Source: Taxawa tesnikishii (nom. ined.)
Lineage: Eukaryota > Ascomycota > Dothideomycetes > Dothideales
NCBI GenBank assembly: GCA_030247885.1
Contig: JAPDRO010000010.1
Coordinates: 744,001 to 808,000 of the forward strand
Direction of reading: 5' to 3'
Length of the DNA: 64,000 nt
The notes beneath the pieces are model-generated. The model searched no databases. It worked only from the letters and a program-made list of their open reading frames with translations, and was not told the origin of the DNA. Numbering within the stretch: the first letter of the stretch is position 1; each line of letters starts with the position of its first letter. Shown one piece after another: positions 25,520 to 60,083 of the stretch. Made by a program: the position numbers and the translations under genes.

Positions 25520-26300
25520 TCATCTCGCACCATCCTCTCTGACTGGGACGTACTGGGCGAGACGTGGAACATACTGCTGCGACACCGCACCGACGGAAAA
25601 GTTCCTCCAATCGTCCATGTGGACCTGGAAGAAAGGATTGAGACTCGTGGTGCGTATGGAGACGTCCATGTAGGTGCACTGGTCGATGGGTAGATTCCAA
25701 CCACACCTGAGTATCTGGTACACCAGTTGCGGGCAATTTAGTGGGATTACTAAGCCTTGGCGGTTGATAAAGAAGTCGCGAAGGTGGGGGAAGTAAAGGT
25801 AATCGATCCCAGGCCGCGTGTGGCACATTTTGCTGTAGCTCTGTGGGTTCGACTCATCCCGGCGTAGCGGCATACGTCCCTTCGCTTGAGAGAGCTTGTA
25901 CCTCATCACTGCAGCTGCGCTGTGTATGAGGAGTAAAGTCTCTAGAGTAATCAAGCCTAAACAAAGACGGGCGAAGTTCGCCGCTCAGTGTGCAACATCA
26001 TCAACCTCCAAGTAGGGCGTGTTGCTGTAGAAAGGATCAAGAAGCAGTACGCTTGGTTAAAGAAGATCTGCGAGTGCTCCGCTCCGTTGCAACATCTCTG
26101 TCCCCTTGACATGTGATCCATACATCATGCTAGAAGCCGGGTCGTCGCAACATAATGCGGTGATTTTCGTTCAACCATTGGGGATTGGAGCGGTTGGACA
26201 GCAAAGGGGCCTGTGTCTCTGGACAGCAGCCGCTGGCTTTAGTGGCGCTACTGACGTGTGCGCCCATGGATCTGATGCCTTGCATTAGAGTTGGACCAAC
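25520..26300 (-). pseudogene. DUF3425 regulator paralogue, 5'-truncated
   Basis: The minus frame to 25520 encodes DYLYFPHLRDFFINRQGL, QLVYQILRCGWNLPIDQCTY and NFSVGAVSQQYVPRLAQYVP. This is the same order as the C-terminal DUF3425 domain of the intact regulator at 40.2-41.8 kb (IPFPQLRDFFINHPDL, LPLLYQTFQCGWNFPIHDC). Nucleotide similarity can be followed upstream to about 26,150 (CCGGGTCGTCG), but no frame is open there. The zinc cluster is missing. It is a truncated duplicate. Confidence 0.7.
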
Positions 26301-26699
26301 AAGTGTAACGACAAATGTAGGCATGCGTTACAAGGTGGTGCCTTTCAGCCCGAACAGACAGTCATGTGACGTGTTAAGCCAAGCGAGGAATCTTCTTTGT
26401 CTCCTAGCTATTGCAGTAGATGGCTTAATCAATCAACAAGTCACCGTCGGTTCCACCCCATGTACGGCCACCTTTGAGCACTCAGTCCAACTGTTGATGA
26501 TATTCCGGGCTATCACGCGTCACATATGGGCTGCAACGTGTGCCAGTCAGTGGCAAGGCTGCGAGCGAGGTCCCAGGGCTCCACTATGGTGCATACAGCT
26601 CAACGACTGACTGCCCGTTCCGTCGCAGGTCAGCGTCGCAGCATTTCCAACCAATCTGATTCCGGTCAGAAGGGAAGTTCACGGAATCACTACCCTAAC
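26301..26699. other. No recognisable gene
   Basis: No motif-bearing frame is seen between the DUF3425 pseudogene and repeat R1. Confidence 0.3.
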
Positions 26700-27893
26700 C
26701 TAACGTGCGGTGTTCGCAGCTGAAGCTCTCGGTAGCTGGCCACAAAGGGAGTTCTACAGCGGAACAGATGTTGTAGTCGTTCAGGAAATGATGGTAGGCG
26801 TAGAACTAAGTTGTTTCGAGGATACTACGCCGAAGCGTCGTGGAGAAGGGACCGGATGCGTGGTTACGATGGCCAAACGCCGGGATTCGGGAGGCAGGAT
26901 TCCATCGTTACGTGCAGCCTCGTGCGGGGAAGCAAGCCCAAGGGAGCAAGAGTATCGCAGAGCATGTGGCAGCGCCCTTCCTGCAGACACCTTCTTCGTG
27001 CGCTATTTTTGGCCGGCGCTTGGGGATAATATACGAGAAACTAAAGATCAGATCTCGTCTCTCACGCTGTTACGATACACCTCGTTTGAGGCGGTTAAGA
27101 CCGTCAAAGCGCAGGTTTCCGGATACGATCTGCATACGAAGGCAGATCGATGGGGAAATTCTAGAACTACTACCTGACTGCAATGCGCCCAGAGGCCGTA
27201 GCCATGTTAAGGGATCCGGGACCAGATAATTCAACATCGGACTCCGACTAGGAGGAAACTTTTTCCGGCCTCCTTCCCGTTTCCCGTTTCCTAGATCGAT
27301 TATAATGCCTTCTCTATTTATAGAGAGCAAGCCAAGATGCAGCCTTACGCTATAATAAAGGAGGGAAATTGCAAACACGCAGATACTGTTTGTGCATCGT
27401 TTGAGAGCTCATCCTCGGACCTTCTCCACTTGTAAACATTTCGAGAACGCCCGCGTTCTAGAACGTGCCTAGCTACCCCTCTCTCGAGGCTTGCAGGAGA
27501 GCTATAAAGACATACGACACATTGTCTAGGTCGTTTATTGGCGACGAGTAAGTACTAAAGAGCAGCCTTGCGTGCTTTCATTAGTATTGACCCGCGCATA
27601 GTGGTCAACCAACGTATCTTGCTAGACGCAGATCCCTGGCCAGACTTGTATGTCGCCCTAGGAGAGCTTAGGAGAAGCGCGCAACGTATAAAACGGAACT
27701 TGCATTTCCTTGCAAATCCTCCAGATCACGGTTAGCAGTCGCAAGCCAGTAGCTATGCGTGCAATGTATCCAAAACGTGAAGGGTCGCATACTGCGAGAT
27801 TGAACTAGATCGTTCCTACAATACTAGAGCCAGAAATCGCAGATACATCTTTCATCCATGTTTGGGAAAATGCGCGACTCTTTACTACTCACA
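26700..27893 (+). repeat. R1 dispersed repeat, longest copy (unclassified)
   Basis: About 1.2 kb shared with 57,050-58,008 (direct), 3,555-3,710 (3' part) and 63,370-63,590 (inverted, 5' part). Landmarks are TCTCGTCTC..GCTGTTACGA near 27,055-27,075, GAGAGCAAGCCAAGA near 27,326, GGTCAACCAACGTATC near 27,602, GCAAATCCTCCAGATCACGG near 27,712 and the end CTACTCACA near 27,891. There is a TATAATAAAG near 27,350 but no recognisable coding frame. The ends are not certain. It could be a non-autonomous element or the end segment of a larger one. Confidence 0.7.
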
Positions 27894-27895
27894 AC

Positions 27896-28137
27896 GCTGC
27901 CTCGAAGGTAGCGGAAGCGGAAGCGGATTCGTCAACAAGAAAGCCGCGCGGGTGGCCATACGAACGTCCAATTGAAGAGACAGTAGAGGGCGAGGAAAAG
28001 AGAGGGGTTGGAAACATGTGTAGCGACTCAGGTTCCGACTGTACTGTTGTTGCGACACGTAGAGAGTGGTTGGATCTACGAAGCTCACCATTTTGTGGTT
28101 GACTACCCCACCTGGTTGACTTCCTCGTAGTTTACGT
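27896..28137 (+). mobile_element. Pogo-B C-terminal fragment with terminal repeat
   Basis: Plus frame SKVAEAEADSSTRKPRG, then MCSDSGSDCTVVATRR, matches the tail of the intact pogo-B transposase. A decayed terminus ends GTAGTTTACGT at 28137. It starts immediately at the R1 3' end. Confidence 0.7.
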
Positions 28138-28372
28138 TTCAATTAGGGATGATTCGATACCAGTTGCTACGCGCTCGAACATCAGTATCTGCACGAGATC
28201 TCGTGCGGAAGCTGTTCGTTCCTAAAGTAACCGCGACACAGAAGATGCGACAGAAGAAGATGCGTACACGCTGCCATTTCCGCTGAGTCTACCGACTTCG
28301 TCTCATCCCCAAATCGTGGCATCCTCTCACGGCACAACTTCGTTCACGTATACCGAGCACCTTATCCTTAAA

Positions 28373-30033
28373 CTATGTCCTCATATCCCCGTCTGCCCAC
28401 ACCGCAAGCGCTCTCGAACTCGCTAATAATCTGTACATCCCGAGCCAACTCACCGTATCTCTTAACCTCCTCTCTTTTAGAATCTGGATGTGGTCCCTAC
28501 AGTCGACCGCGATGTGCAGTTTCCATTCGTCCGAGGTAACAACGATAAGGGGATGGCTTGTCACTGTTCTTCTTCCCTGCTCAGTGTATAGAAGGGCGGA
28601 TAAGCGTGCGAAGTATACTGAGGACCAAACTCCTAGCTGTGCTGCGCCGTCACCTGCACCGGCGCCGGAGACTTTAGTTTCGATAGAGATGGCACAGGGA
28701 AGGCTGTTCACCGGAGGGTACAGGGCCTAGTTCACAGTGCGGAGGTTGGGAGGTTGATGCACGATGATGTTGCGGATCGATTGGCCGATGACTTCGGTGC
28801 GTGGAAGCAGGTTGACGGTGTAATCGACCATTTTTGATTCGAGCTGTTCGATACCGCGCCGTATCTCGGGATAAATGCCGGGCAGATAGGCGCTCTCGTC
28901 CTGTGATGGGCGTCAGCATCGCGCTCCGCACTTCGCAACAAGCGAGGAGTGATTCGATCGTCAAAGGTCAGGCCAACTCACACGTTGTGCACTTTGAGTT
29001 TGGAAAAGGGCTTGAGAGCCAGGCGGAGAAGCGGGTAGTGGACTGCTTCGTTCCAAGCAGCTTCAAAGCACAAGTCCATGTCTTTAGCGTTGTTGTAGAT
29101 TTCTGTGAGAGCTTCCAGCTCCCGTTCAGCTCCATTGTCGTTTTCCCTAGCATCTCTCAAGTACTGTTCGCGAAGCTCTTGACCTTCCTCCTCGAGAAGC
29201 GCCATTATTGCATCCTGCACCGCATTTCGGATGATGCGCAGTCCAAAGTCTATATCAGAGATCCGCCTCAACAGGCTCTTGACGTCCGGCGGGGTATTCT
29301 GCATAGAGATCCGGGCGGGGATGATGGGTTTATCGGCGTATCGCAAGATGCCTCCACTCTTGATAGGGCTTCTGGAACGTCGGAATGATCTGCCCGACAC
29401 CGCAGAAGACGATGCAGATTGTGACGGAGAGCCGGATCCTGACATGCTGTCCGAAGCTCTATCAAGAGGGGGCCGCGACATAGGGACAGTCCGTTCCCTC
29501 AGTTGCGCTGCATATCGCGACGCACGTTGTACTTCTCGGATCGGATGTGGGCTCTAAGTAGCCTCTGGTTGTCTTGTTCTTTGTGGACTGCCTATGCTTG
29601 GTGCGTTCCTACTTCCCCTCTGTCGCGCCGGCCGTGGAGTGTCCTGTACCTCCTGTTGGTCCTGCTCTTGAAGTATAGCATCCAGTCCTTGCCTTTTCTT
29701 CTTCGACGTTGAAGGTGTTCTTGCACTTCTGCGCACCGTGCGCTCATTTGGATCCATGAACGCAAGCGGTGCGCGCAGGCGTTCTTGTGGCTTCGTAGAG
29801 AGGACCTGCTCGTCATCCAGAGACGTGCGCTTGACCCGCTTTACAGGTGTGGTTTGATCGTCCGTACGTGCATGCTTCTTGTTAAGCGCACGCCCGATAA
29901 CGAATTGGCAATCGTAAGCGGCGAAGGTGGCGTTGGTATTTGAGGTGATGGCGGTAGAGGTGGTGTTGGCTGCTGCGATATTACTCAGCCACGCTTCGAT
30001 ACTGCTGCTAGATATTATTGATGGCTGTCGCAT
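28373..30033 (-). pseudogene. PD-(D/E)XK nuclease-like protein, two in-frame TAGs
   Basis: A single minus frame runs from ATG 30033 (MRQPSIISSSSIEAWLSN) through 29,481 and 28,984, across an 83-bp GT-AG intron (28,983-28,901), to the stop at 28373. The middle has the alpha-helical block typical of this fungal family (SLLRRISDIDFGLRIIRNAV). After the intron come YLPGIYPEIRRG, the catalytic-looking KMVDYTV and SIETK (Asp...Glu-x-Lys), AQLGVWSSVYFARL and DEWKLHIAVDC. TAG codons at 29554-29556 and 28727-28729 are the only breaks, each explicable by CAG to TAG. Its motif set is complete, whereas the open paralogue at 58.6-60.1 kb has lost the Lys. Unless the stops are recoded it is a recent pseudogene. 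Confidence 0.7.
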
Positions 30034-30450
30034 CAAGATCGGGCCGTGTTGGATGATCATGATGACCAGAGGATATGGACGATGGTAAACAAAACACACG
30101 TGCCCAAAGATCCTCCCGCAGCCCGTAACCCACATTCCCTGCTAACTATGCCTTTTGCAGGTCGACGTCCATCGGTTTTTCTCGAGCTTCCATTGGTTCG
30201 CTTCTTTCCGCCCCTCCCGCCCGGGGCACCTAAAGGGTGGGGACTTAGACGCGTCCTTGCCAGAGGGTATTCTCTGCGCATCGTGTTTCGCGTCACTGCG
30301 AGGCGCGTGTCTGCCGATCATGAGAGGGGTGAAAGGACGACTTTCTATATAACGGCTCGTGCTGTGATGTTGGGACGATTATCAATGTTTTGCAATGCTT
30401 TCGGCCGCCACAATGTCTTAGCTGATCTCTTCACGGCTGCTCGATAGTGA

Positions 30451-30790: not shown

Positions 30791-31834
30791 TCAGCGGTTC
30801 TTTGTGACTGAACCTTGTCTTGAGGATGCTATCCAACCTTGCATCTTCCATCCCCACAAACCAAAAGTAACCATGGTAACCTATACGCGACCAACCTCGA
30901 CAATCTTCTCGGCTTCCGATCTATGTTCATCGTACTCCTGGCCAGAACGAGGCAGCACAACTGTGGCCTCACGGCGAGTGCTCGCTGACCTGTCCCAATC
31001 GGTTGCCTCCCTGAGCCGCTGCGCAAGGTCCGCATCTGCTCCGGACGTGGTCAGTTGATTGGTTGATTGACCAAGTTGGATTGAGTAGATTTCGTTTACC
31101 CCGACCCGTCCGGAGCGGCATGCAGGCTACAAACTATGACCGTAGTATTGTGTCAGTTACAGGAAGCCCATTGTCCCTCCTGGCTAGCGTTGCAGTAGGT
31201 ACGGGGCTTCAGCTGTTCGTCCCTTTTTCTTTGCAGAACCGTTCCTTGTCGAACACGTCAGGCTGGACAGCTTACCGAGGCACAATGAAGGCTTCGCGTC
31301 AGTTGGTGCTTCAGATCGGACGATAGCACATTTTCGTGTGTATCGCCACTTAACAAGCTTCAACAAGTATCGAAGTCTTCCCGATGTATTCCTCAAGCTC
31401 GACAACAGAATTCGGACAGGCTCCGGCCAGATCATGTGGAAGTGACTGGTACGTATATGATGTCTGGGATCAGGCACAAGCATACTCACAAACATTCGGG
31501 GATTTCTCCAACTCTTATCACCGCTGCAATGGTTGCCCAAGGTCGCGGCCTGCATCCATGTGAATGTTGCATGCCTAGTGCTCTCCTCTGTGATGTCATA
31601 TCTGTTGAGTCTTCCTACGATTGCGGGGCCCTACGATGTCAATCAGTCGATTTCTGCGCCCATGTGCAGCCTTATATCATGTCCTTCTTGCAGCGTACGG
31701 CGATGAGTTACCTCTGCTCATCGACGGCTCCTCCCACCGTTCACTTCCTATCTACCTCCTCACTACCTCCTCACTACCTCCCACATAACTACCGTTGCTG
31801 CAATTACACTGCGTCTTTGAGAACCCACACCACG
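30791..31834. other. No recognisable gene
   Basis: Short ORFs only. A small GATT-rich repeat lies near 31,055. The last about 150 bp contain a TACCTCCTCACTACCTCC duplication just upstream of the zinc-cluster gene and may be its leader. Confidence 0.3.
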
Positions 31835-32848
31835 ATGTCCGCACAACGTGATGCAATCTCCCGAACCCGAATGACGGTAACAGGAAGAGAGTCTGCAAAG
31901 CGTGCGATCGATGCCGTATGAAGAAGTCGAAGTGCGATGGCAAACAACCTTGCTGGAGGTGTAAAGCGGGCAATGTCGTCTGTATGTTTGGCGAAAGGAG
32001 ATCATCACGCGATAGAGTTCATCCAAAAGGGTATGTCCACCGTGCCGGAAACCTTGTATGCAGCAGCTGAGGTTCTCAGATATGCAGAGGTGCTCGAGCG
32101 ACAACAAAAGCAACTCGTTGCTGGCCTGCAAGGAACATACAGCAGATTGCTCAAGGCAAACCTCTGGCCCGGTGCTGCGTTGCCTGAGACTGATGGTCGC
32201 CCCTTCACTCATGATATTCTTGCCAGACTCGATCTTCTGGAAATCGAGCCCGAAGGCAGCGGTGAGGCCGAACTTTTCGAAGATGGTTCTCAGAAACTTC
32301 AGGAGGGTCTTCTTCCAGAAGCCGCTCCACGTATGATTAGCGAGCACCCTCCCAGTCCAGGTCTACGACGGTCAACCATCCGTGACATAGCTGAGCTTCC
32401 ACAAGCACCACTGCCCTTACGTGACAACACTGTATGCTACGATGCTTCACGCATACTACGCACGCAGAGTGCCATGCCTCCATCTCCCAGAGTGCAGTTT
32501 GTAAGCCCATCATCGTTGTACACGATTGATGCACCCGCGACTGCCGAAGATGACTGCATGAACTTCTTATGGAACGACCGCGGATCTTACCTCACCGATC
32601 CTCTTCTACCGCAACCTGCAACGCCGCTGTTAAGCATGTGCAGTGGCGCGTACAACAGCTACACCCAATCTGCAGTATACGACGTGCCTCTACCCTACGA
32701 CGGTGCCGGCATAACGCAAGGTCCATGCTTCGAAGAAGCGTTACCACGATCGACAAGCAGCACGCAATATGGTTGGTCAACAGAGTACACAGAGTTCTTG
32801 GGAGTCATGGACAAGGAGCTAAGTAAGTTTTTCAAGGTCAGAGCCTGA
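31835..32848 (+). CDS. Zn2Cys6 (GAL4-type) transcription factor, 5' end unresolved
   Basis: Exon 1 encodes the full binuclear zinc cluster: CKACDRCRMKKSKCDGKQPC, then WRCKAGNVVCMF (about 31,894-31,989). It continues to HPKG at 32,030. A 49-bp intron (GTATGT 32031 to CAG 32079) joins exon 2, giving PKGYAEVLERQQKQLVAGLQ, the standard coiled segment after the cluster in this family, with no frame loss. Exon 2 ends LGVMDKELSKFFKVRA-TGA, a typical ending. Upstream, the frame of the cluster meets a TGA at 31848, while nearby ATGs (31835, 31851) are in other frames. So there is either an unseen first exon or a one-base error. It should bind CGG-type DNA sites; targets are unknown. Confidence 0.7.
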
Positions 32849-32974
32849 AAGCTCGTCGCTGTCGCGACAACCCGGTTGCTCGGATGTGTGAGGCTTGTCC
32901 TTGTGTGTTCGCGTTGGCCATGCCGGCATTTGAATTGCAAAAGTAACATGAACCGCGGGGTAATGGATCAGGTA

Positions 32975-33047
32975 CCGTGTCCGTGCACCCAATGCACGGA
33001 TTCACTCAATGCACGCGGGGTATTAACTACCCTAAACTTTAACACTA
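32975..33047 (+). mobile_element. Pogo-D left end remnant
   Basis: CCGTGTCCGTGCACCCAATG from 32975, preceded by TA, matches the left terminal repeat of pogo-D copy 2 and its first interior bases. It is cut at 33,047 by pogo-A copy 1. Just outside lies AACCGCGGGG (32,951), a pogo-B-like terminus, so at least three insertions are stacked here. Confidence 0.7.
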
Positions 33048-33170
33048 ACGTAGTTCACCACCGAGCGGCCAACCACCACCGAGTGGCCCACCCCACTAAA
33101 GTTGCGTCTATTACATGTCTATTACCTCCGCACCACTACACTCTGCTGCAATCTGCCAGGCACTACAGTA

Positions 33171-33773
33171 CTATTCAGAAGCGTCGCTATCGCCTGGATC
33201 TACTATTTCTGCAGTGCAGGTGCGCTTGTTGTGGCCAGTCTTGCCGCAACGCCCGCAGTGCCTCTGCGCGCGCGCCCTCTTTGCAGGCTGTTCAGCTGCC
33301 TCCTCACCACCACCCTCCTTCTCAGCAATCAGATCCAATACGTCGCCTACTGCAAGGCTCTCCTCTGTGCGAACATACTTCCTCTTGCGTTTGCGCTGCT
33401 CTGTTGCTGCCTCTATTGCCTTGCGAAGACCTGCGATTTCCCTGGTCTGCAACACTGAATTATGACCTATGATAGCTATGCCTTTGGCAAGCGAATTGAC
33501 AGCCTGCAGAAGAGGTGAAACAGGCGATTCTCTGTGCTGTTGTATGCGCTCGCGGACTAGTGTTGATTGGGCCTCTATCTCCTGCAGGTTGCCTGGTGTT
33601 TTGGATTCCCATAGGGTGGCCTCTACCGGTGGAGGTGTTGGCGTGCGAAGCACCACATCAAGCTTCGATAGCACTCGCTCTGGGTCGTGGGGGACCAACC
33701 CAGCGCCTCTGAAGCTTGCCTGGATATTCTCCTTTGTGATTGCCTTGTCGAAAGCGATATGAAAGGCTGGCAA
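33171..33773 (-). CDS. Pogo-A transposase C-terminal part with CCHC knuckle (200 aa)
   Basis: This is the -1 frame continuation of the transposase; the frame is already open from the C-run at about 33,857. It encodes FHIAFDKAITKENIQASFRG and GLVPHDPERVLSKLDVVL, the usual end of the DDE_1 domain. A coiled region follows, and then a retroviral-type zinc knuckle, CGRCGKTGHNKRTC (Cys-x2-Cys-x4-His-x4-Cys), near the C-terminus. It ends in TAG. A CCHC knuckle at the end of a pogo transposase suggests added nucleic-acid binding. Both copies of the element carry the same arrangement. Confidence 0.75.
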   Translation of the reverse strand: MPAFHIAFDKAITKENIQASFRGAGLVPHDPERVLSKLDVVLRTPTPPPVEATLWESKTPGNLQEIEAQSTLVRERIQQHRESPVSPLLQAVNSLAKGIAIIGHNSVLQTREIAGLRKAIEAATEQRKRKRKYVRTEESLAVGDVLDLIAEKEGGGEEAAEQPAKRARAQRHCGRCGKTGHNKRTCTAEIVDPGDSDASE

Positions 33774-33844
33774 GAAGCTCTCTTTCTTGACTTGCGTGAC
33801 TGAGTACCGTGACCAGCTGTCAATCTCCGTGTAGTACGCCCGCT

Positions 33845-34840
33845 TCAGGGGGCAAAACAGCCCACGTCAAGCGGCTGCAACAGGTGCGATGAGTGTGGAG
33901 GCATGCAGAGAACAACAATCTTCTGTTCCTCACAGTACTTGTGGAAACTGTGACTATTGTGGCTCTCATGGCCGTCCACAATCAGTAGACGATACATTCC
34001 TATAGTACGCCCCTTTGTATGCGCGTCAAAGTGCTTTAACCACCTGATAGCAAGCTCATTTGACGTCCAGCCGTTAGGGCTAGTCTCGATAACCCAATCA
34101 CGAGGCAGGCCTGGGTACCAGCTTGATATGAGGACCTTGCCGCCGAAGATGATAAAGGGTGGGATAGCCCACCCACTAGCGCAGATGCCCTGGATGATTG
34201 TAACCCACTCCCGGTTGCCCGGCTGTATCTTCTTTGGATTGTTCCGCTTCTCAGTGCCTGTGAAGACCATATGAGCGTTTATCACGCCCATCATGAAGCC
34301 TGTCTCATCAAAGTTGTGTGTGTCTTCATCCAGGATGCCGTACTTCGCCTTTGTGTCCTCTACAAGCTTGAACCAGGGCGCTATAACGCGTGCATCTTCG
34401 TTCAAGGCTCGCTGACGATCGTATGGACGGCTGCGTCGAAGCTTGATATCGTCGATACGCGTCTTGAACCTGTCTACCCAGTTCTTGCCAACGGGCCCTT
34501 TCCCACGCGCGGCGCGTAGATCATTGGCCATTTCTCCGACCATAGTCCTTGTAGCGCCTATCCCTCGCGCATCTAGCTCAAGTATGCGTCGCACAACTGC
34601 GTCCTCTTCTAGGCTACTAAGGTTCCTGCAGTTGGGCTGAGTATCGCGTCGTGAGAGGGTTCCGTCGCGTCGTCGTCTTAGCGTCGTTCGGGGGACGTCA
34701 AACGCTCTGCTTGCGTGTCTCGTAGTATCTGGTGTCTTGGCTTGGGTAGCCTGGATAGCAAGGGACAGTGTGCCTTCGTTGTAGGTCTTCTGCGCGTTAC
34801 GTGGTGGTGGCATTGTAGGCAATAGACATGTAATAGGCAA
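33845..34840 (-). CDS. Pogo-A transposase, HTH and DDE core (331 aa)
   Basis: The open frame starts at 34840; MPPPRNAQKTYNEG (start 34813) may be the true N-terminus. HTH segments RHASRAFDVPRTTLRRRRDG and RGIGATRTMVGEMANDLRAA come first. Then the catalytic core follows: HNFDETGFMMG, YRLLIVDGHESHNS and SSHLLQPLDVGCFAP, giving three catalytic Asp. The frame ends in TGA immediately after CFAP, in a run of five C. The rest of the family domain (LKRAYYTEIDSW...) continues in the -1 frame as the next entry. Cut-and-paste transposition at TA sites is the family's known activity. Confidence 0.85.
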   Translation of the reverse strand: MPITCLLPTMPPPRNAQKTYNEGTLSLAIQATQAKTPDTTRHASRAFDVPRTTLRRRRDGTLSRRDTQPNCRNLSSLEEDAVVRRILELDARGIGATRTMVGEMANDLRAARGKGPVGKNWVDRFKTRIDDIKLRRSRPYDRQRALNEDARVIAPWFKLVEDTKAKYGILDEDTHNFDETGFMMGVINAHMVFTGTEKRNNPKKIQPGNREWVTIIQGICASGWAIPPFIIFGGKVLISSWYPGLPRDWVIETSPNGWTSNELAIRWLKHFDAHTKGRTIGMYRLLIVDGHESHNSHSFHKYCEEQKIVVLCMPPHSSHLLQPLDVGCFAP

Positions 34841-34895
34841 AGGTTGGTGAGGCGGGCCACTCGGTGGTGGTTGGCCGCTCGGTGGTGAACTACGT

Positions 34896-35272
34896 TATCT
34901 ACCTTTTAATAGAGTAGTAAATAGTATGAGAAAGAGAAGGCATATCCTTAGAAAAGAACGTATCTTATAGCAACCTAACCTCCCTAACGTAAATAACTCT
35001 ACCCTTCTACTTACCTCTCTACTTAACCCTTCTACTTACCCTTCTATCTACTATACCTTAGCCCTTTCCACTTCAACTTCAACTTCAACTTCAACTTTAA
35101 CTTCAACCCTAACTTCAACTTTAACTTCGTCCTTTATCGCCTTCTACCTACTGCATAGGTTAGGCTTACGCTAGCGTACGCCCTTAGTTATAGACTATCT
35201 TACCCCGTAAGAGGAGTTTTCTTGCTTGATACTAATGCCGCCACGATAACGAAAACCCGTTTCGTTCGCGAA
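34896..35272. repeat. AT-rich spacer with (CTTCAA)n and CTTCTACTTACC repeats
   Basis: Pyrimidine-rich low-complexity DNA. Near-repeats of CTTCTACTTACC lie at 34,996-35,055 and (CTTCAA)n with CTTTAA/CCCTAA variants at 35,078-35,130. No gene is seen. It lies between pogo-A copy 1 and the 3' end of the recombinase-helicase gene and has far lower GC content than its surroundings. Confidence 0.6.
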
Positions 35273-38200
35273 CTACCTAATCTGCCGGCCCCATTCTTGC
35301 AACACCTGAGACAGCACTACCACTCCCTGCACGCATCTCGTCCCTCCTAACCGCCCAGATCCTCCAGCCCAGAGGAGACAGTCTTCCACCTTCTCGAACC
35401 CGACCCCGAACCGTTGCATCCACCATTCGCCTCCCCCTGCACTTCGAACCGTGCAAATACCGCCTGCATCACTAGATCCTCGTACCGGCATCGACCGCTT
35501 GCTACTCGGTCACATACTGTTTGCGGTTGGAAACAGTAGAAGCATGCGTCAAACCTGCCTACCCACCGTCGTCGACTACGGTGTAGCACCGCCCTCTTGG
35601 CCTCGATGTACCGCCATTTGTGCGCTTGGCGGCATTGCGAGAAGGCGTGCTGCCACTCTTCCAGCCCTCGCGTGCGGCAGATCATGCATTGCCCCTTGAC
35701 TGCTTCTAGATTGTCTCGGTACACGTCCATCTCTTGCTCTTCCTCTCGGGCTTGCCGCAGCAGTACCGTCGGGCCTGTTGCCGCCTGAGCTGGTTCCCGT
35801 GCCCGAGAACCCGTAGCCTCAGGCCTGGGAACACGACGACAGTTGTCGCAGACCGCATCTTGTGCATCGCACACAGCTGGCTCCTCTACGCCGTCCATGT
35901 ACTCGTCAAGCGCTGCTCTCCGGCATGTACTGCTGCTGAGAAACTGCTGGAGTACCTTCTCGTTTCGCTCGCTTTCCCGCCGTACCCCAGCCTTCCACCC
36001 ATGACGAAGAACGATGATCGACTGTGCTTCCCGTCCGTCCCTGCCTCCCCGTCCGGCCTCTTGCGAAAACTCCACGGCACCGTAAGGTTCGTCGACGTGC
36101 GTTACCACGCGCACGTATGGGTAGTCCAACCCAGCCCCTAGCCCAGAAGTACCGACCAAGAAAGGACTGGCCGACCCACTCGCCCACGATGTGATGATAC
36201 GAGCTTTGTCTTGCACCTCCCCGGCCTCGGAGTGGTAGCTGGCACAGCCAAGGAGGCCTGCCAGTCGGTCGGCTTCGGCCTTGCTACGAGTGAAGACAAT
36301 AGCTCGGTTCTCGCCGTGACGGCCGCCAAATCGTTGCTGCCATAGCTTCTGCATCATGGACGCGGCTTCCTGCACGATGTCGTACTGTCCCTGCCGAAGG
36401 TGCATGATGGTGTATCGCAGGTTGCTACGCCGAGTAGAAGCGCGGATCTCGTGCACCTGAGTCAGAAAGTGTCGTTTGAGGAGGGTGTTTTTCATGCTGG
36501 GCGGCAAGGTGGCGGTCAGCTACACGAATTGCACGGGCAGGCTTCGCAACAGAGCTAGCTGGCCCATGACACGACGGTAGCTGGAGGCTGTGAGTATCAG
36601 ATGACATTCGTCGATCACGATGCGGCTCAGTTGCTGCTCGTGATGCAGCCGGTAGAGGTAAGCTCGTCCTTCCTCCGACGTCGCAGCTTCCGCGGAAAGG
36701 AAAACCAAGGCCGCTCGAGTCTGATGGCCGACGGTCCATTCTTGACAGTCGATGCCTAGTCCTCGACATCGTCGCATGAGATCCAGACGCAGTGCGACCA
36801 AAGGAACGATCAAGACCGTGGTCTCAGCACCGGACAGACAACAAGGCAGTTGGAACAGCAGACTCTTCCCCATGCCCGTCGCCATGACCACCAGGACCTC
36901 CATCGTGCCCGTCATGACGGCACACATGGCTCGCTCTTGCTCGACACTTCGCCACTACAGCTGAGGGTTCTGATAAATCCTTCTCGCTTCCTGCAGCAAA
37001 GCCCGCCCACTCCAATGCTTCTTCGGCACCGACAGTGCAATCTTCTTCAGAATGCCTCGGCCATCGTCAACGTCAATTCTCGCTCGTTTCTGTCCGGCGT
37101 AGTCTTGCTCTGCTGGCCCTTCAAACCGAAAGAAACGCGACCATAACAGACACGCACGATGAGAGCGCTTGATCAACCCGTCCCAGACATTGGCACCCGT
37201 CAAGCTCGTCTCGTTGGCGTATGCTCGATTGTGCGTACGAACGGTATGATTCGACATTCTCGCCAACGTGGCGGCTTCTTCGTCTTCTCCGTCGTCACCA
37301 TCGTCATCTTCCCCGTCTGCATTCCTGTCCACCAACGCTTCGAAGCATCTTCGATCGGCACCGAACTTCGTCTTCACAATCGATGCACAGATTTGTCTCC
37401 AGTGAGACTCGCTCAGGGCGGGAACTTCGGCCAAGGCATAGACCTTTCTCATCACCCTTGTCAGATTCTTCTCGTCCCACACTTGTCCGTCTTTGGTCCA
37501 CAGTTGAGCAGGCAGTAGCTTTCCGTGTTGGTGCCATAAGAACAGTTTGCGTAGTGGCTGCACGTAGATCAGCAAGTCCAGAACTATGTCATCAACCGCC
37601 GTTGTAGGGAATCTTATGTTGTCTTTGTGCGATCCCCACTGCGCTTGACCTTTGTGGTAGGTGGTGTAGAACATGATCCGTTCGTGCTTCAAGATGGCAC
37701 TGCGGATCTTCTCGGTGTTGCGGAATGTCACCGACATGCATTCCGGCCCTCTGAGGGGAGGATACATCTGGAACAAGACAAACAGACACTCGAGAAGTTG
37801 CTGGACGTGATGCTCATACAGCCTCATGGCCGAACGCCGCCATTCGTTCCCCTCGTCCAAAAACACGTCTCGGACGGCCGGGGTGCTTTTGATATGCTCG
37901 ACCAATCCCGTCGCTCGACCCTGCAGCGCCGTAGCATTGCGAGCATCTAGGGCGAACCACCAGCCGACCTCTCGCCGATGCTCTCCTTCCTGCAGAGTAG
38001 TAGCAGACATTCGAGGAAGGTGGTCGGCTCCCAAGAGGAGATCACGCTCCAAGATCAGTCGAGCCCTCTCCAGAGTGCGGCGATACAACTGCGTGATCTG
38101 GTCCATAGTGATGGCGGTACCCTGGTAGCACACCTCAGATCCATCAAGGCTCCACGTGGCGTTCTTGCTCGACACCTCCTGCTTGGCCACGTTGAACAGC

Positions 38201-39657
38201 ATCAGTCGCCAGTTGAGGACGATGCCGTACGTGGTGCTTCTCTCTTGCCTCATCCATCGTCGACAGAGCTGAGCCAGAACTTCGTCGAGATGCAGTTGTC
38301 CCGGATGTTCGTCGACCAGTCGACAGGCTTCTCGGAAGACAAAGAGTTGAGCGCAATAGATCATGCCGGACAAGGAACTGTTGAAGTTGCCCGGTAGCTT
38401 CCAGCCCAGCGAGCTATGGTTGACGGCCAGCATGGCACAATACGACTGCACCGGTGACTCAAATCGGTAACGAGGCAGGTCATGCCGAATCATGGTCATA
38501 CTCCACCTCAACACCGAAGACCGAAGAGCCTCGTCGTCTCCGCTGGCTGCACCTTCCAGACACTGATCGAATGCTTTCGTCTGTTCTGATGTGCCGGTGA
38601 AGAGCATTGCTTCGTCGGAGTCGTGGGCTTCTAAGTCGTCCTCGCCGTCTTCACTTGTGTCTTCATCACCGGCGTTGCCATTCCCACTGCCTGTCCGCGT
38701 CAGAGCACGACCTCTCGACACCCGCCAAAAGCAGAACACCAAGCTCGCCCATAGGCCAAAGTACCGAGCTTTCGTGTCCGTTCCGATGCCGACTCGGAAA
38801 CCACGGGCATGAATCGTAGCCTCGTTCCAGAACTGACCGAGAGAGACCGCCATAGGCCGCGTCAGTCGACACTCGGGTCTGTCCACGCACCACTACCAGG
38901 CGTCTTCTAGCACCTTTACTGCCATCGAGGCCACTCGCCGCACCAATTCGCTATCCGGTTCTTGCTCTTCCGGTTTGCGCCGGCTACGTCGGATCTCCTT
39001 CTTATCCAATCCTTTCAGGTGTCTATCAAATCCACATGACCGAACCCAAGGAATGGCACTCGACTTGTGGTCGGTGCCGTCGTGCACCTTTCTCGCTTGC
39101 CACTCTTCCTCCTCCTCGATCTTGCCCAAAACGCTGGCTTGCGAAGTGACGAAACGCTCGACGTCGCGTGTCGTCGATGATGTTGCTAATCTGACCTGTG
39201 TTGCTTCTCCTTCTCCATCCCCATCCTGCACCACCCAGAACCAACGCATGCACCTCTTCTCCCTGAAAACTGTCTGCAACGAGCATCCTTCCATATCTCG
39301 TCCTTCCGCACCTCGATAGATACTATGCACCTAACGAAGATGGGTCTTCAAGTTCACTGGGTCTGCACTAAGACCTTTACGGCAGTGTAGGCATCTCCAT
39401 CCACGGTGGACCTGCAAGTGTGCAATAGCACGGACAGGTTGGTCTTCTACTGGCGGATGCTGGACTTCACGCGTCGGACGTACAGGCCATTCCGCAAATC
39501 GTGCGTGGATGCACATGAGAGCAGCACCTTTTAGGTGGTGGGGCGCCGGACGAAAATGGTTATTTATCGAATTGTCCGTGTTGGCTACTACACCGGATCG
39601 GCAACGGTGACAGATGACTACACCCAGACCCGATTCGAAGTGCAAGGGCTCCGGCAT
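35273..39657 (-). pseudogene. C2H2 fingers - tyrosine recombinase-like - RecQ helicase fusion gene, interrupted
   Basis: A single minus frame from ATG 39657 stays open for about 1,410 codons except for four TAGs (39331, 38893, 36955, 36520). A one-base shift near 35,430 moves the C-terminus into the frame ending at 35273. Parts in order follow. Two OrsD-like fingers (CHRC...HH; CLHC...HLR-stop-VH). A tyrosine recombinase-like domain, about residues 590-830: LRGPE (Arg636), YHKGQ (Lys669), SHWRQ (His752, Arg754), NHTVRTHNRAY (His804, Tyr813). A RecQ helicase follows: ATGMGKS at about 926, DECH at about 1016, LTATLP after the fourth TAG, and QEAGRGGRDG at about 1199-1208. A Cys-rich zinc region (CRRA...CDAQDAVCDNC) and a second Cys-rich tail close it. 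RecQ-type genes of this class occur near fungal chromosome ends; the recombinase reading is my inference. Each TAG could derive from CAG by one C-to-T change. Dead by ordinary decoding, but strikingly well preserved between stops. Confidence 0.72.
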
Positions 39658-39741
39658 GGCTTACGCTACGTGCACGCAAGAGTATACGGATCCGGGACCT
39701 CGTCGGCGCCGATCGCGTCGCTGTCGACTTAACCCTAAGGC

Positions 39742-39841
39742 ATGTTATGGCATGACATGCCAAGGCGCGCCCATGGCCAAGCCCGATGCGGCTTAGAGCT
39801 TGCCGTGCGGGGACTAGCGTACCCACGTCATGCCATAACAT
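39742..39841. promoter_or_regulatory. Inverted repeat pair upstream of the recombinase-helicase gene
   Basis: ATGTTATGGCATGAC at 39742-39756 is exactly mirrored by GTCATGCCATAACAT at 39827-39841. The left arm overlaps a perfect palindrome GGCATGACATGCC (39749-39761). The pair lies 85 bp upstream of the gene's ATG. It could be a protein-binding or recombination site, or a hairpin; nothing in the sequence decides. Confidence 0.5.
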
Positions 39842-40245
39842 CGCGGGGGACTAGTGATAGCCTTGCGAGAACCACGCACCGATGCACGATGTCGGCAGTT
39901 CGTCCAATTCACGTTTACCCATATGGACATTACAGTAAGTCCTTCCATTCCTTCCTCCGCATCCTGGTGTGAAGTCGGCCGTTAGTGCGGACTGTGGAAA
40001 GTGAAATGCCGTTGCGAGATGCTTCCTCTTCTGAAGATGCTGACCGCGTAGCATGAGCTGTTGTCCGCGGAATCTCTGCAATCTTTTGCATATCAGGCGT
40101 CTGTGATTGATTCCGGGCAACGGACTGGGCGAAATTCAGGAAAAGAAGCTCAACCCTAAAGCGTCCGCTATCAAATATCTATCAAAACTCTACGGAGACG
40201 ATGTTTCTGCCGCAAAGAGGAGAACGGTCAAAAGTTAGTCTCTCC
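39842..40245. other. No recognisable gene
   Basis: The spacer between two minus-strand genes holds only motif-less frames. It should contain the 3' flank of the Zn2Cys6/DUF3425 gene. Confidence 0.3.
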
Positions 40246-41773
40246 TCATATTGCGCCTTCCCCTCTGACCGGGACGAGGTTACCGAGCTGCGGTATGTAT
40301 TGCTGCAGCACTCCGCCGACGGAAAAGCTACTTCCCTCAGATATGTGACGCTCGAAGTAAGGATTGAGGTACGTATGGCGCGTGGTGCCGTCCATACAGA
40401 TGCAGTCATGTATGGGGAAGTTCCAACCACACTGGAACGTCTGGTACAACAGTGGCAGCCATTTCGGAGAGGTCGCAAGATCCGGGTGATTGATAAAGAA
40501 GTCGCGAAGCTGTGGGAAAGGTATGAAGTCGATCCAGGCAGGATGTGGCACATACTGCTGCAGAGGCGTGGGTTTGGCCCATCCCGGCAAAGCCGCAAAC
40601 GTCTGTTCGGTCAGGAGAAGACTTCGCGTCATCAATGCCGCTGCGCTGCGGATGATCACCAGAGCCTCTGCAATTGGCGTGCTTGTACAGGAATACCCAA
40701 AGTTCGCCGCCCAGGATGGAACGTCCTTGGGGTCTGACAAGGGCTTGTTTGTGATGAATGGGTCAAGACACAGCAGCCCGCTTTGTCCCAGGACGTCTTC
40801 ATGAGTGGTGCCCTGGGCGATCAACTCGGCCGTCTTGCGATGGAAACCTTGTATCATCTGAGAAACCGGGTCGTCGGAATATGTCAACAGGCTCTCGCAC
40901 AGCCACTCAGGCTTGAAAAAGTTGGACAACTGGCGGGCCTGTATATCTGGAGACATTCCGTTCGCTATGATGGCGCTACTGAATGGCAAGTTTCCAAAAC
41001 ATGCGGGTGGGGCGAAGCTCGTGTACTGTCGGTTCGTATCATACCCTACTGAAGTCGGCATAGAAAGACTGCTTGCGCAGCGCTGGTTGCCCTGTGGGCC
41101 GGTGAAGGGTCCGTTTCCAGCAGCGAATTCTACAGTAACGTCTCGTTGGCCGGTAAGGGAGTCGACTCGTTCCAGTTTGGGTCCATTGGTTGCAACAACT
41201 ACGTCGTTCTCCGCTTCATCACCACTGGACGAGCTTGGCGAGGCGTTGGGCAACGACAAGCCGAAACCGGGACAGCCTCCTATATAAATGTGATGACTGG
41301 AAGTCTTCAGCCACTCTTGGTCGACTTCGAGAAACTCCTGAACACTACGGCTACTCCGAATGCGGCCCAGCAGACCCTCGGCTGCGGGTAACGATGAAAT
41401 CCTAAGCTCGTCGAATACTTTTAGAGCCACGTGGAGGGAGTTTTCTAGCTCTTTGTTTCGATCCTTCAACACCTGAACACGAGTGGCGCCTAGGGGAGCG
41501 TCATAGTTGCATTTCATGCCTTTCGCACGGCAAGCTGAGCAGCTGGGTCTTTCTCCATCGCACTAACGACATTGTAAAATCAGTAATGGCTCTCAATCTC
41601 GGTCAGTCAGCATTATCAACCTTGCACTTTCGCTTTTGGCAACAGTAGCAAGCTACAATGGTGAGATGTAGGCGAGCGGCCTTGCGGGAGGACGGTGATA
41701 CGCGGCGTTCCTCTTTGATGGCAGATAGATTGACGTCCTCTGTCGAGGTCGGCATTGACAACGAGACAGACAT
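40246..41773 (-). CDS. Zn2Cys6 transcription factor with DUF3425 domain
   Basis: Two exons fit, 41773-41621 and 41562-40246, joined by a 58-bp GT-AG intron inside the zinc cluster. Across the join the reading is CYCCQKRKCK then CDGERPSCSACRAKGMKC, a perfect C-x2-C-x6-C-x6-C-x2-C-x6-C binuclear cluster (residues 42-68 of 489). A short coiled coil follows (VQVLKDRNKELENSLHVAL). The middle is Ser-rich, and a C-terminal DUF3425 domain (about 380-475) has PTPLQQYVPHPAWIDFIPFP and CGWNFPIHDCICMDG. DUF3425 is more often met in bZIP regulators. It is a nuclear DNA-binding regulator with unknown targets. No stops; it ends in TGA. A truncated duplicate of the DUF3425 part lies at 25.5-26.3 kb. Confidence 0.85.
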
Positions 41774-42872: not shown

Positions 42873-42874
42873 TA

Positions 42875-44721
42875 ACGTAGTTCACCACCGAGCGGCCAAC
42901 CACCACCGAGTGGCCCGCCTCACCAACCTTTGCCTATTACATGTCTATTGCCTACAATGCCACCACCACGTAACGCGCAGAAGACCTACAACGAAGGCAC
43001 ACTGTCCCTTGCTATCCAGGCTACCCAAGCCAAGACACCAGATACTACGAGACACGCAAGCAGAGCGTTTGACGTCCCCGAACGACGCTAAGACGACGAC
43101 GCGACGGAACCCTCTCACGACGCGATACTCAGCCCAACTGCAGGAACCTTAGTAGCCTAGAAGAGGACGCAGTTGTGCGACGCATACTTGAGCTAGATGC
43201 GCGAGGGATAGGCGCTACAAGGACTATGGTCGGAGAAATGGCCAATGATCTACGCGCCGCGCGTGGGAAAGGGCCCGTTGGCAAGAACTGGGTAGACAGG
43301 TTCAAGACGCGTATCGACGATATCAAGCTTCGACGCAGCCGTCCATACGATCGTCAGCGAGCCTTGAACGAAGATGCACGCGTTATAGCGCCCTGGTTCA
43401 AGCTTGTAGAGGACACAAAGGCGAAGTACGGCATCCTGGATGAAGACACACACAACTTTGATGAGACAGGCTTCATGATGGGCGTGATAAACGCTCATAT
43501 GGTCTTCACAGGCACTGAGAAGCGGAACAATCCAAAGAAGATACAGCCGGGCAACCGGGAGTGGGTTACAATCATCCAGGGCATCTGCGCTAGTGGGTGG
43601 GCTATCCCACCCTTTATCATCTTCGGCGGCAAGGTCCTCATATCAAGCTGGTACCCAGGCCTGCCTCGTGATTGGGTTATCGAGACTAGCCCTAACGGCT
43701 GGACGTCAAATGAGCTTGCTATCAGGTGGTTAAAGCACTTTGACGCGCATACAAAGGGGCGTACTATAGGAATGTATCGTCTACTGATTGTGGACGGCCA
43801 TGAGAGCCACAATAGTCACAGTTTCCACAAGTACTGTGAGGAACAGAAGATTGTTGTTCTCTGCATGCCTCCACACTCATCGCACCTGTTGCAGCCGCTT
43901 GACGTGGGCTGTTTTGCCCCCTGAAGCGGGCGTACTACACGGAGATTGACAGCTGGTCACGGTACTCAGTCACGCAAGTCAAGAAAGAGAGCTTCTTGCC
44001 AGCCTTTCATATCGCTTTCGACAAGGCAATCACAAAGGAGAATATCCAGGCAAGCTTCAGAGGCGCTGGGTTGGTCCCCCACGACCCAGAGCGAGTGCTA
44101 TCGAAGCTTGATGTGGTGCTTCGCACGCCAACACCTCCACCGGTAGAGGCCACCCTATGGGAATCCAAAACACCAGGCAACCTGCAGGAGATAGAGGCCC
44201 AATCAACACTAGTCCGCGAGCGCATACAACAGCACAGAGAATCGCCTGTTTCACCTCTTCTGCAGGCTGTCAATTCGCTTGCCAAAGGCATAGCTATCAT
44301 AGGTCATAATTCAGTGTTGCAGACCAGGGAAATCGCAGGTCTTCGCAAGGCAATAGAGGCAGCAACAGAGCAGCGCAAACGCAAGAGGAAGTATGTTCGC
44401 ACAGAGGAGAGCCTTGCAGTAGGCGACGTATTGGATCTGATTGCTGAGAAGGAGGGTGGTGGTGAGGAGGCAGCTGAACAGCCTGCAAAGAGGGCGCGCG
44501 CGCAGAGGCACTGCGGGCGTTGCGGCAAGACTGGCCACAACAAGCGCACCTGCACTGCAGAAATAGTAGATCCAGGCGATAGCGACGCTTCTGAATAGTA
44601 CTGTAGTGCCTGGCAGATTGCAGCAGAGTGTAGTGGTGCGGAGGTAATAGACATGTAATAGACGCAACTTTAGTGGGGTGGGCCACTCGGTGGTGGTTGG
44701 CCGCTCGGTGGTGAACTACGT
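42875..44721 (+). mobile_element. Pogo-A transposon copy 2 (complete ends, 1,847 bp)
   Basis: Same termini as copy 1, with TA at 42873-42874 and 44722-44723. Frames at 43,175-43,924 and 43,996-44,598 match copy 1, including the -1 shift in the C-run after CFAP. The only difference I find is one C fewer in the GTCCCC run near 43,078, which shifts the N-terminal frame so that it ends at a TAA. Copy 2 is therefore one base shorter. It lies 31 bp from the pogo-B element. Confidence 0.92.
43175..44598 (+). pseudogene. Pogo-A transposase, N-terminal shift plus shared -1 shift
   Basis: From 43,175 the HTH and DDE core are open (RRILELDARGIGATRTMVGE, HNFDETGFMMG, VDGHESHNS, LLQPLDVGCFAP) to the TGA at 43,922. 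The CCHC-bearing C-terminal frame follows from 43,996. The start codon region at 42,959 is out of frame because of the one-base loss near 43,078, so this copy lacks a usable N-terminus. Confidence 0.8.
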
Positions 44722-44752
44722 TATCCTGCGAGAATCTTAGGCTATATACTTA

Positions 44753-58565: not shown

Positions 58566-60083
58566 ATGTCAAATGACTGGGAGTTCGTAGAGTTGTGGCT
58601 TGACAGTGCCGTACCCTTCCATCAAGATGGATTTCCCTCTGTATCACTGTTGGAAGCAGCTCACGGCGCGCCCCGCGTCGCATCGACTCGCGCTCCACCA
58701 ACCCCTCCTGCATCCACATGGCCAGTCAAGCCCTCCGACGACATCTGTTCAGCGTCCCAAAGCCAGTCGCTAAAGCGCAAAAGACGCGTCTGGACAAGAA
58801 AGACAGCGTGTGACGCGATGCCGTCGCCGCGCAAACGCATCAGAACTCAGGACGACCACACCTCCGTCACAACCGCTGCGAGCGTCCTCAGTGACATTCA
58901 GCTACCTCCCACAGTTAGTTCTCGCTCCTCTTCTCCGACGAAAGTTCGAGCGGGAAGCCCTGTGAGAGAGCTAAGAGACATCTACCGTTTTGCCAGCCCG
59001 CCGCTCAAGTACACCACAACTCCGGATGCCAGTACGCCGCGGAGCGTCACAGATCTCATAAACGGACTGCCGTTGCACGGGGTGGGAGTGATACCTGGAT
59101 CTTTAAAGGTATCGGTTGTATCAACAATCCAGCTGCGACGTTGACTGAGTGATGTTGAAGGAAACCATCAGAGCCGCCCTGCCTTTTGAGACTATGCCTG
59201 ATTATGCCTTTGACACATCAATCAACACCGATCAGTCCGCCGATCAGGCGCTATGGAGCAAGGCTATGAGCACGTTGGAGAGAGCAAAGGCGTGTTTCGT
59301 GGACAACGAGCCCGAAGCTCCATGGTTGGCGATAGCAGCAAAGCTGCTAGAGGACGTTTTCGCGCAGTCGGAGTTGGACGGAATGTTGTGTGTCAAGGAC
59401 GTGTAAGTATTGGTCCATGTTCAGCTTGGGCCTCACAGCCATCGCGACTGACGCACACCGGTGCTTGCAGCCAATACAGCGACATCAACTCCAATAGCCT
59501 CCTCCCACATGTCCACAACACCGCGATCCCAACCAAGAAAGCAGACCTCGCCATCGCCGTCTCAGCTCACACGCCTGCCACTGCTCCAGTGTATACCGCA
59601 CTCCGCACATCAGACCCCACAATGAGACTCAGTCAGATGTCAGAGACGAGCGTGAGCAGGCTAGCTCTGCCGGGCTGCATTGAGGTGGGTGAGCCGGGCA
59701 AGAGCTACTTGGAAGCCAGCCTGCAGCTCGGGGTCTGGTGTTTCGCTGGGCTGGAGAAGCTGAAAGAGCTGAGAGTGCACTCCGGGAAGACTGATGAGCA
59801 GATACTAGCGTCGGGAGAGGAGAAGGAAAGCGAGATTGCACAGGACATGAGGTCTCAAGAAGACCTTCCGATCTTCGGATGGACTGCGATCGGTATGGAC
59901 TGGAAGCTGCACGTCGCATTCGAGGACAAAGCGGATGGAGGTGCTGTGGTTCTAGGACCTTTGGATAGTGGGGGCCTGGGTTCCGCGTTGTCATTCTTCA
60001 AGCTCTTCAGGACAGCGACGATGTTGGCCAAGTGGGCGAAGGAGACGTATTGGGCGGAGTTTCGGAGTATCGTGAAAGCATGA
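58566..60083 (+). CDS. PD-(D/E)XK nuclease-like domain protein (465 aa)
   Basis: Three exons fit: 58566-59108, 59161-59402 and 59471-60083, with GT-AG introns of 52 and 68 bp. The joins read GSLK/ETIRAALPF and CVKDV/QYSDINSNSL. N-terminus: WEFVELWLD, then a Ser/Pro/basic linker (SLKRKRRVW, SPRKRIRTQ). The helical region SVTDLINGLPL...ALWSKAMSTLERAKAC precedes the fold core. Core: TKKADLAIAV (expected catalytic Asp), CIEVGEPGK, EASLQLGVWCFAGLEKLKEL, MDWKLHVAFED and LARW-like LAKWAKETYW. The fungal family is expected to have Glu-x-Lys; here it is Glu-Val-Gly, so the Lys is missing and nuclease activity is doubtful. The gene is otherwise intact and ends in TGA. Paralogues lie at 13.5 and 28.4-30.0 kb. 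Function is not known. Confidence 0.8.

Follow-up and report, generated by a model that had tools for sequence, protein, structure and literature searches.

Does a gene that carries zinc fingers, a recombinase-like domain and a RecQ helicase in one polypeptide belong to a mobile element, and if so, how would such an element move? The question is raised by a minus-strand gene in a 64,000-nucleotide stretch of Taxawa tesnikishii (nom. ined.; contig JAPDRO010000010.1, positions 744,001 to 808,000, or C2:744001-808000 in our contig numbering), hereafter the window, for which an earlier note had proposed a self-mobilising unit combining recombinase and helicase. The architecture which that note described was recovered: the gene is a single frame with its ATG at 39657 and its stop at 35347-35349 (1436 codons, no frameshift), in which OrsD zinc fingers are followed by a middle domain of ~430 amino acids and a RecQ helicase. 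The N-terminus is matched by the Pfam family OrsD (PF12013, E 1.2e-9; 1.5e-23 for an intact telomeric copy), which we take to be the family earlier named DUF3505. The helicase is matched by DEAD (E 7.4e-13) and Helicase_C (E 7e-11), and weakly, under the cut-off, by RecQ_Zn_bind (0.0045). Four in-frame TAG codons interrupt the gene (39331-39333, 38893-38895, 36955-36957 and 36520-36522), and the terminal stop is also TAG. The window gene belongs among the telomere-linked RecQ helicases (TLH), a kind already known. Our best explanation, held with about as much confidence as doubt, is that it comes from a family of mobile elements at chromosome ends, of which it would be a decayed member, type B, that has become internal; the joining of these elements would most likely be carried out by a tyrosine recombinase in the middle domain.

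To place the gene among its relatives, the middle domain was searched against the 29.37-Mb assembly (34 contigs), yielding at least 106 matches (69 of 123 candidates scored); 54 places were parsed, and the remaining 52 match rows were judged by inspection to be additional pieces of the parsed copies. Most numerous is a form that we denote type A, to which the window gene is 33-47% identical over the matched parts. Type A copies are present on 50 of the 60 ends of contigs >200 kb, all read towards the telomere and with the match beginning 3.15-3.67 kb from the contig end, congruent with the spread near telomeres that the earlier note had sought to explain. CCCTAA repeats occur within the first 200 nt of 29 of the 34 contig starts, and a 51st type A copy is found at C2:869 kb, on a telomere joined to another by scaffolding (TTAGGG - 500 N - CCCTAA). 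At C2 ~865.2 kb (L018 1682-2181), 500 N separate the TTAGGG and CCCTAA arrays, and the contig has the appearance of two chromosomes that scaffolding placed one behind the other. A sequence common to C2:863205-863310 and C2:1161941-1162046, ~2 kb from the telomere and near two ends without TLH match, also flanks one TLH junction (L099), representing a different subtelomere type.

The type A units measure 6.3 kb, and eight of them are 99.4-99.8% identical to a ninth. They comprise a repeat-bearing inner terminus, the OrsD - middle domain - RecQ gene, a pyrimidine-rich arm and the telomere. A RecQ-type DEAD and Helicase_C core is shared by the window gene and the intact type A copy, whose helicase is nearest to RecQ5, BLM and WRN chains among PDB sequences (best E 2.9e-24), and OrsD and the helicase were the only Pfam families at E <= 0.01 in the scanned frames of the unit. 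Ten match rows of type A are free of stops over positions 220-642, three of these in 1012-aa frames, while many other copies are frameshifted or stop-bearing; intact and broken copies thus stand side by side, as in a mobile family. At type A loci (L011 4299-4620) the frame changes after a 501-aa frame, and a putative short intron of ~52 nt, read by eye, would connect the frames. Homologues were also sought in viral_contigs, with the window domain, an alignment of three sequences and the protein of the intact type A copy as queries, and no relative turned up.

The inner terminus of the type A units is exact. Of 51 first-look candidates, 40 copies were scored (39 contig ends and one scaffold-joined end), the 11 unscored being, we infer, the TLH-bearing ends that are left. 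In each of the 40 scored copies, the unit stops at one nucleotide (...CTACGAGTAG, or in its longer form ...TTTGACTTCTACGAGTAG), whereafter 40 different sequences follow, and the last 167 bp are 100% identical in all scored copies. Similarly, when eight telomeric copies were compared with a ninth over 6.3 kb, the matching ceased at one common point. We took 400 bp past the terminus of each of the 40 copies; in no pair of flanks does the ungapped identity over the first 40 nt exceed 60%, and the junctions therefore look independent. Moreover, several flanks are one repeat entered at differing points or in reversed orientation, which argues against duplication of a single ancestral junction.

As many flanks are repeats with uninterrupted copies elsewhere, the target before the join is visible, and empty copies were examined for 27 of the 40 flanks. 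For a first set, alignments from flank base 1 were kept and occupied ends, upstream stretches <20 nt and duplicates removed, leaving 23 rows for 16 targets, with L073 as a 17th. AG directly precedes the join in 15 of these 17 (as AAG, TAG or GAG); AG makes up 7.0% of the dinucleotides in the flanks, and the chance of 15/17 is 6e-16. For a second set, drawn from 16 of the 23 flanks then lacking an empty copy, 28 non-self matches were found, of which 20 loci were hand-picked so that each of the 10 flanks with a match was represented, and AG was present in 10 of 10 targets. Overall, 25 of the 27 targets have one or more uninterrupted copies with AG at the join, a way of counting that leans slightly to AG; by the closest copy only, L085 (TAA) fails as well and the count is 24 of 27; row-wise the counts are 18/23 in the first set and 18/20 in the second. 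The base before AG is A, T or G, with C never seen. Three targets lie in DNA without visible repeat-induced point mutation (RIP), namely GACAAG, GAAGCAAG and CTGAG, and the rule is thus not a product of AT-rich mutated repeats. Since the element itself ends in AG, the exchange point within these two bases cannot be placed.

The type A units that were read thus stop at a single fixed position and adjoin unrelated DNA, in nearly all cases directly behind (A/T/G)AG, and each forms a chromosome end. We consider site-specific joining of these units highly probable, and the self-mobilising unit envisaged for the gene is well supported by the fixed terminus, the differing flanks and the AG at empty targets. 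Ordinary subtelomeric homogenisation, in which TLH genes would spread between ends by homologous recombination or break-induced replication, would fit the near-identity of the eight units to the ninth and their terminal placement in a single orientation, and recombination may well help to make units alike. Homology-driven copying should however leave variable inner breakpoints, whereas here all 40 fall at one base, next to unrelated flanks and under the AG rule; as a sole cause it is hard to sustain, and we regard it as improbable. Because of the fixed terminus and the AG rule, the units look like terminal mobile elements rather than merely recombination-shuffled genes. An assembly artefact, with a telomere consensus appended to contig ends, finds a precedent in at least one artificial scaffold join, that of 500 N between two telomeres on C2, but the copies differ in frameshift and stop variants, and an assembler would not pick AG targets in 25 of 27 cases, making this explanation extremely improbable.

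Direct and inverted repeats mark the inner ends of the elements. The type A inner end holds three direct GCAAACGAATCGTGG repeats, an inverted CAAACGAAT-7 nt-ATTCGTTTG arrangement and the CTACGAGTAG palindrome at the terminus, with a telomere-like inverted pair, CTCTAACCCT/AGGGTTATAG, between the repeats. In two type A loci scanned up to the telomere, CAAACGAAT (three direct) and ATTCGTTTG (one) are confined to the last ~120 nt, and the terminus, folded as a single strand, outperforms most of its shuffled versions (z -2.3, a modest signal). The outer end consists of a short CACT repeat running into the telomere array, with small differences among eight ends. The type B inner end was located from homology between the window and a fragment on contig C11, which ends at window position 39860 in ...GGGGGACTAGTGATAG, with a terminal TAG as in type A; it has its own 18-nt inverted repeat, a direct GGGGACTAG pair and one AACCCTAA.

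A hairpin followed by a short tail ending in TAG brings Helitrons to mind, which insert between A and T, end in a 3' hairpin and a CTRR tail, and encode a Pif1 helicase. In a Helitron-like rolling circle, the hairpin 9-14 nt before the terminus would be the end signal and the helicase would drive strand displacement. The repeat code DHX presumably stands for Helitron. It was assigned by the authors to comparable repeats of Colletotrichum higginsianum (PMC5576322). Yet the tail reads GTAG or ATAG and not CTRR, the targets are (A/T/G)AG followed by any base rather than A followed by T, the helicase is RecQ and not Pif1, and Rep/HUH nickase or Helitron_like_N matches were absent from the unit frames scanned with Pfam, leaving this mode with little probability. 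Still less probable is an RNA- or DNA-templated end capture, where a reverse transcriptase or polymerase working in trans would extend a broken chromosome with a 3' end in ...CT, using an element-derived molecule, read from its fixed 3' end, as the template. Priming over 2 nt on a template whose end is fixed would indeed yield such a junction, and every join would yield a telomere-capped end; however, the copied strand would run antisense to the gene, and no reverse transcriptase match was present in the scanned unit frames.

A tyrosine recombinase would explain the inverted arms around the 7-nt spacer and needs only a short shared core. The signature residues that the earlier note had assigned to the middle domain are all present at their positions in the window protein (R636, K669, H752, R754, H804 and Y813), although H752 and R754 are two apart, forming H-x-R instead of the HxxR that had been reported. 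The second motif of tyrosine recombinases is H-x-x-R. When the window protein is aligned with two diverged relatives, no variation is seen at R636, K669, W753-R754 and Y813, and the catalytic Arg, Lys, second Arg and Tyr consequently occur in tyrosine recombinase order in 3/3 sequences. The H804 column reads H/H/Y, with His in the window and type A and Tyr in the third, mutated copy, and the spacing between His and Tyr is nine; of the five residues proposed for a conservation check, four accordingly hold in all three sequences and the His in two.

Several observations weigh against this reading, most of them concerning the nature of the middle domain. The HxxR His position (-3 from R754) is S/S/V in the three sequences, and the motif is thus lacking. 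The spacing of R-K-R-Y among the invariant columns is reached in 12% of label permutations under loose, analyst-chosen limits, so that residue spacing alone is not significant and the motif alone is weak evidence. Searches of Pfam, NCBIfam and PHROGs gave no credible match for the middle domain, the NCBIfam recQ matches deriving from an alignment member that extends into the helicase. PF00589 was not found in the genome search at E <= 10, nor for the middle domain itself, and comparison with PDB sequences remained at chance level (mt-SAF30, E 1.4; diaminopimelate decarboxylase, E 0.31; or none). The profile check suggested for the domain likewise came back negative: in hhalign a TLH middle-domain profile of 3 sequences only reached probabilities of 0.3% with XerD (81 sequences), 0.5% with lambda Int and 0.1% with Cre, while the controls lambda Int and Cre scored 94% and 88% against XerD. 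Lambda Int against Cre as single sequences fails as well (0.7%), and thin profiles therefore miss true relatives. A single-sequence AlphaFold model of the window domain had a pLDDT of 34.8 and is unusable for fold. Beyond the domain, two targets lack AG as aligned, L072 (TTA) and L096 (GTA; AAG if shifted over a TA run), and further copies of AG targets read ATT (L076), TAA (L085) and TAA (L087, two of three copies). No interstitial type A unit occurs among the copies examined, while a recombinase that inserts circles would be expected to leave such units; the inferred type B terminus is based on two copies; and the join may be made by a host enzyme rather than by the encoded protein.

These points give room to a site-specific terminal element joined by other means, whether through a host enzyme that works on the repeats or through an unrecognised activity of the middle domain, be it a nuclease or one that joins strands. 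The junction and the AG rule are independent of the identity of the enzyme, and no test favours tyrosine recombinase homology. The invariant R, K, R and Y in recombinase order, with His and Tyr nine apart in two of three sequences, speak against such an alternative, as do the short inverted arms and 7-nt spacer that resemble a recombinase site at the terminus, and we deem it unlikely. The recombinase of the earlier note is retained as a good but unproven candidate for the joining enzyme, and we hold its chemistry to be conceivable, with doubt slightly prevailing. That the element's own protein is the joining agent is somewhat more probable than the opposite. Aggregated, what the earlier note had observed is partly confirmed, and its interpretation partly supported.

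With the tyrosine recombinase as the preferred agent, the following course may be envisaged. The element's own protein would bind the repeats of the inner terminus. Its middle domain would link this terminus to a short target that contains AG, by way of a core of two to three bases common to both and most likely by chemistry of the tyrosine recombinase type, with the RecQ part unwinding or resolving the joining intermediate. Because telomere repeats sit at the opposite end of the unit, one such join, or a single exchange of a telomere-tipped unit with an internal site, would give the target chromosome a new end in place of its own. Segregation of chromatids after the join would then raise the copy number.

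The window copy itself is internal, ~81 kb from the right telomere of its chromosome (C2 ~865 kb), and may have been a chromosome end long ago, before it came to lie inside, or may stem from an internal join. On C3, another type B copy differs from the window copy by 590 C>T or G>A changes, 8 reverse changes and 14 transversions over ~1640 aligned bases, a pattern that we read as the mark of RIP, whereas the window copy is overall not mutated likewise (TA/AT 0.57 vs 1.78); a third relative, also mutated, is located at C2:1140-1145 kb. TAG as a reassigned codon was considered for the window gene and dropped, given the long open frames of type A copies and the strong RIP mutation of the sister type B copy. 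The pyrimidine fraction of the 3' flank is 0.71 vs 0.75 in the type A outer arm, with similar stretches elsewhere in the window. The left boundary is masked, both by a Fot1-like transposon (33046-34898) and by a repeat that resembles a transposon and ends at 33018. Attempts to define the limits of type B further included a C29 paralogue of the neighbouring gene as an empty site, which was rejected as the alignment ends short of the junction and its last 83 bp are no better than shuffles, and the fragment C2:362519-362597 as a boundary, dropped as a transposon starts at 362599. A second copy of the C11 flank was looked for and none found.

Comparable arrangements are known from other fungi. The C. 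higginsianum study describes subtelomeric families, DHX_G198, DTX-chim_G199 and DHX-chim_G203, with DUF3505 and helicase domains, occurring as a single full-length copy at all 24 subtelomeres in one orientation, with fragments elsewhere; they divide the telomere from chromosome-unique sequence and were read as likely sites of homologous recombination (PMC5576322). By description only, these repeats resemble the present units in combining OrsD/DUF3505 with a helicase and in having one copy per end in a single orientation, but they span 11.3-18.5 kb as opposed to 6.3 kb here, and a fixed junction base, a target or a recombinase-like domain is not described in the accessible text (PMC5576322). 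Together with the TLH genes, they call for a correction of the earlier note's remark that it knew no well-described element with this architecture. With the TLH/tlh genes of Magnaporthe, Ustilago, Metarhizium, S. pombe, Fusarium and Agaricus, the type A genes share the RecQ-family helicase, the proximity to telomeres and the occurrence in several to many copies. Such genes lie near telomeres in Agaricus (PMC7473861), S. pombe (PMC7840980) and Mycosphaerella (PMC4522978), and have been known in fungi from 1998, in Ustilago (cited in PMC7473861). The same papers report no domain besides the helicase core in subtelomeric RecQ proteins (PMC7473861), leave the functions of the S. pombe Tlh protein unclarified (PMC7840980), and discuss telomere maintenance, survival without telomerase, heterochromatin RNA and substrates for homologous recombination as roles. 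An exact inner terminus, an AG target or a recombinase domain of TLH is not described in the open-access literature surveyed, as far as its accessible text goes.

Of other telomeric units, the Y' elements of Saccharomyces are bounded by telomere-type repeats and spread chiefly by homologous recombination. Type A units are like them in being telomere-adjacent, helicase-encoding repeats over many ends (Y' is named in PMC4522978), but unlike them in that a fixed base abuts unrelated DNA on their inner side. MoTeR and FoTeR are likewise mobile elements at fungal telomeres, often alongside TLHs (FoTeR, PMC12857005; MoTeR in PMC5576322); they are non-LTR retrotransposons tied to telomere repeats, in contrast to the absence of a reverse transcriptase match from the scanned unit frames. 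Cryptons and Starships share with our units a DNA-only nature, a short sequence common to the target and, of the Arg-Lys-Arg-His-Tyr signature, the two Arg, the Lys and the Tyr, with the His present in two of the three sequences here. They are tyrosine recombinase elements that are interstitial, without a telomere and without a RecQ helicase in the recombinase. Unlike Cryptons, the family here has no tyrosine recombinase family match, and its 40 scored copies are all at chromosome ends; sequence similarity of the middle domain to the tyrosine recombinases compared was not detected, and a search of the genome for the DUF3435 captain of Starships stayed under the cut-off throughout (top score 17 bits, on C24, outside the TLH places).

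Table 1. Features of the window gene and its flanks (positions within the window).
Feature	Position	Strand	Basis or remark
Telomere-linked helicase gene of type B, with OrsD, middle domain and RecQ parts	35347..39657	-	One frame, four internal TAG and terminal TAG
OrsD zinc-finger region	39340..39639	-	PF12013 E 1.2e-9, residues 7-106
Middle domain, residues ~440-870, candidate tyrosine recombinase without family match	37048..38340	-	Alignment with two relatives
Candidate catalytic residues R636, K669, R754, H804, Y813	37219..37752	-	R, K, R, Y in 3/3 sequences, H804 in 2/3
DEAD box half of RecQ helicase	36556..36939	-	PF00270 E 7.4e-13
Helicase_C half and weak RecQ zinc-binding stretch	35836..36321	-	PF00271 E 7e-11; PF16124 E 0.0045, under cut-off
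Gene 5' flank to inferred type B terminus ...GGGGGACTAGTGATAG at 39860	39658..39860	.	blastn homology to C11 fragment (L066) stops at 39860; two copies only
Left arm, 18-nt inverted repeat (94% complementary) near type B terminus	39742..39759	+	
Right arm, 18-nt inverted repeat, 19 nt before inferred type B terminus	39824..39841	-	
Two direct GGGGACTAG repeats, 39809-39817 and 39846-39854	39809..39854 (span)	+	
Gene 3' flank, partly pyrimidine-rich, possible outer-arm remnant (weak)	34899..35346	.	
Fot1/pogo-like DDE_1 transposon in 3' flank, outside the element	33046..34898	-	

The surroundings of the gene contain further repeats and genes. Two near-identical, oppositely oriented copies of the Fot1/pogo-like DDE_1 transposon lie on either side of the TLH gene, the second at 42873-44723, and at least 19 further places match at 100% identity, 15 of them on C2 (40 of 101 candidates scored), suggestive of a recent burst without RIP. 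Segments 97% identical to window 26000-30216 and 30934-33018 are found at C2 559-563 kb and 506-508 kb, probably through recent segmental or transposon duplication. Among other frames, 40246-41562 is a Zn2Cys6/DUF3425 transcription-factor-like gene with a C29 paralogue (L065) of 75% identity, 18821-21583 is a long open frame resembling trehalose-6-phosphate synthase/phosphatase (PF00982, PF02358), 59214-60083 holds a frame of the PD-(D/E)XK nuclease family PF20516, and 6803-8260 an HNH_2 frame.

Subtelomeric fungal RecQ genes have so far been without an agreed function, and the one-base terminus and AG target of TLH units, and hence their apparent site-specific movement, appear to go beyond what is described. 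If true, TLH genes would be site-specifically moving elements, which would explain the copies in one orientation at most ends and provide a mechanism for repeated replacement of chromosome ends. Tentatively, and with a little more reserve than conviction, we propose that they may constitute a new class, the chromosome-end transposon, in which a recombinase-helicase fusion would move telomere-tipped ends, by their one fixed terminus, onto AG sites of other chromosomes and so supplant the ends of these, and that TLH genes across fungi may be such elements rather than telomere-maintenance genes.

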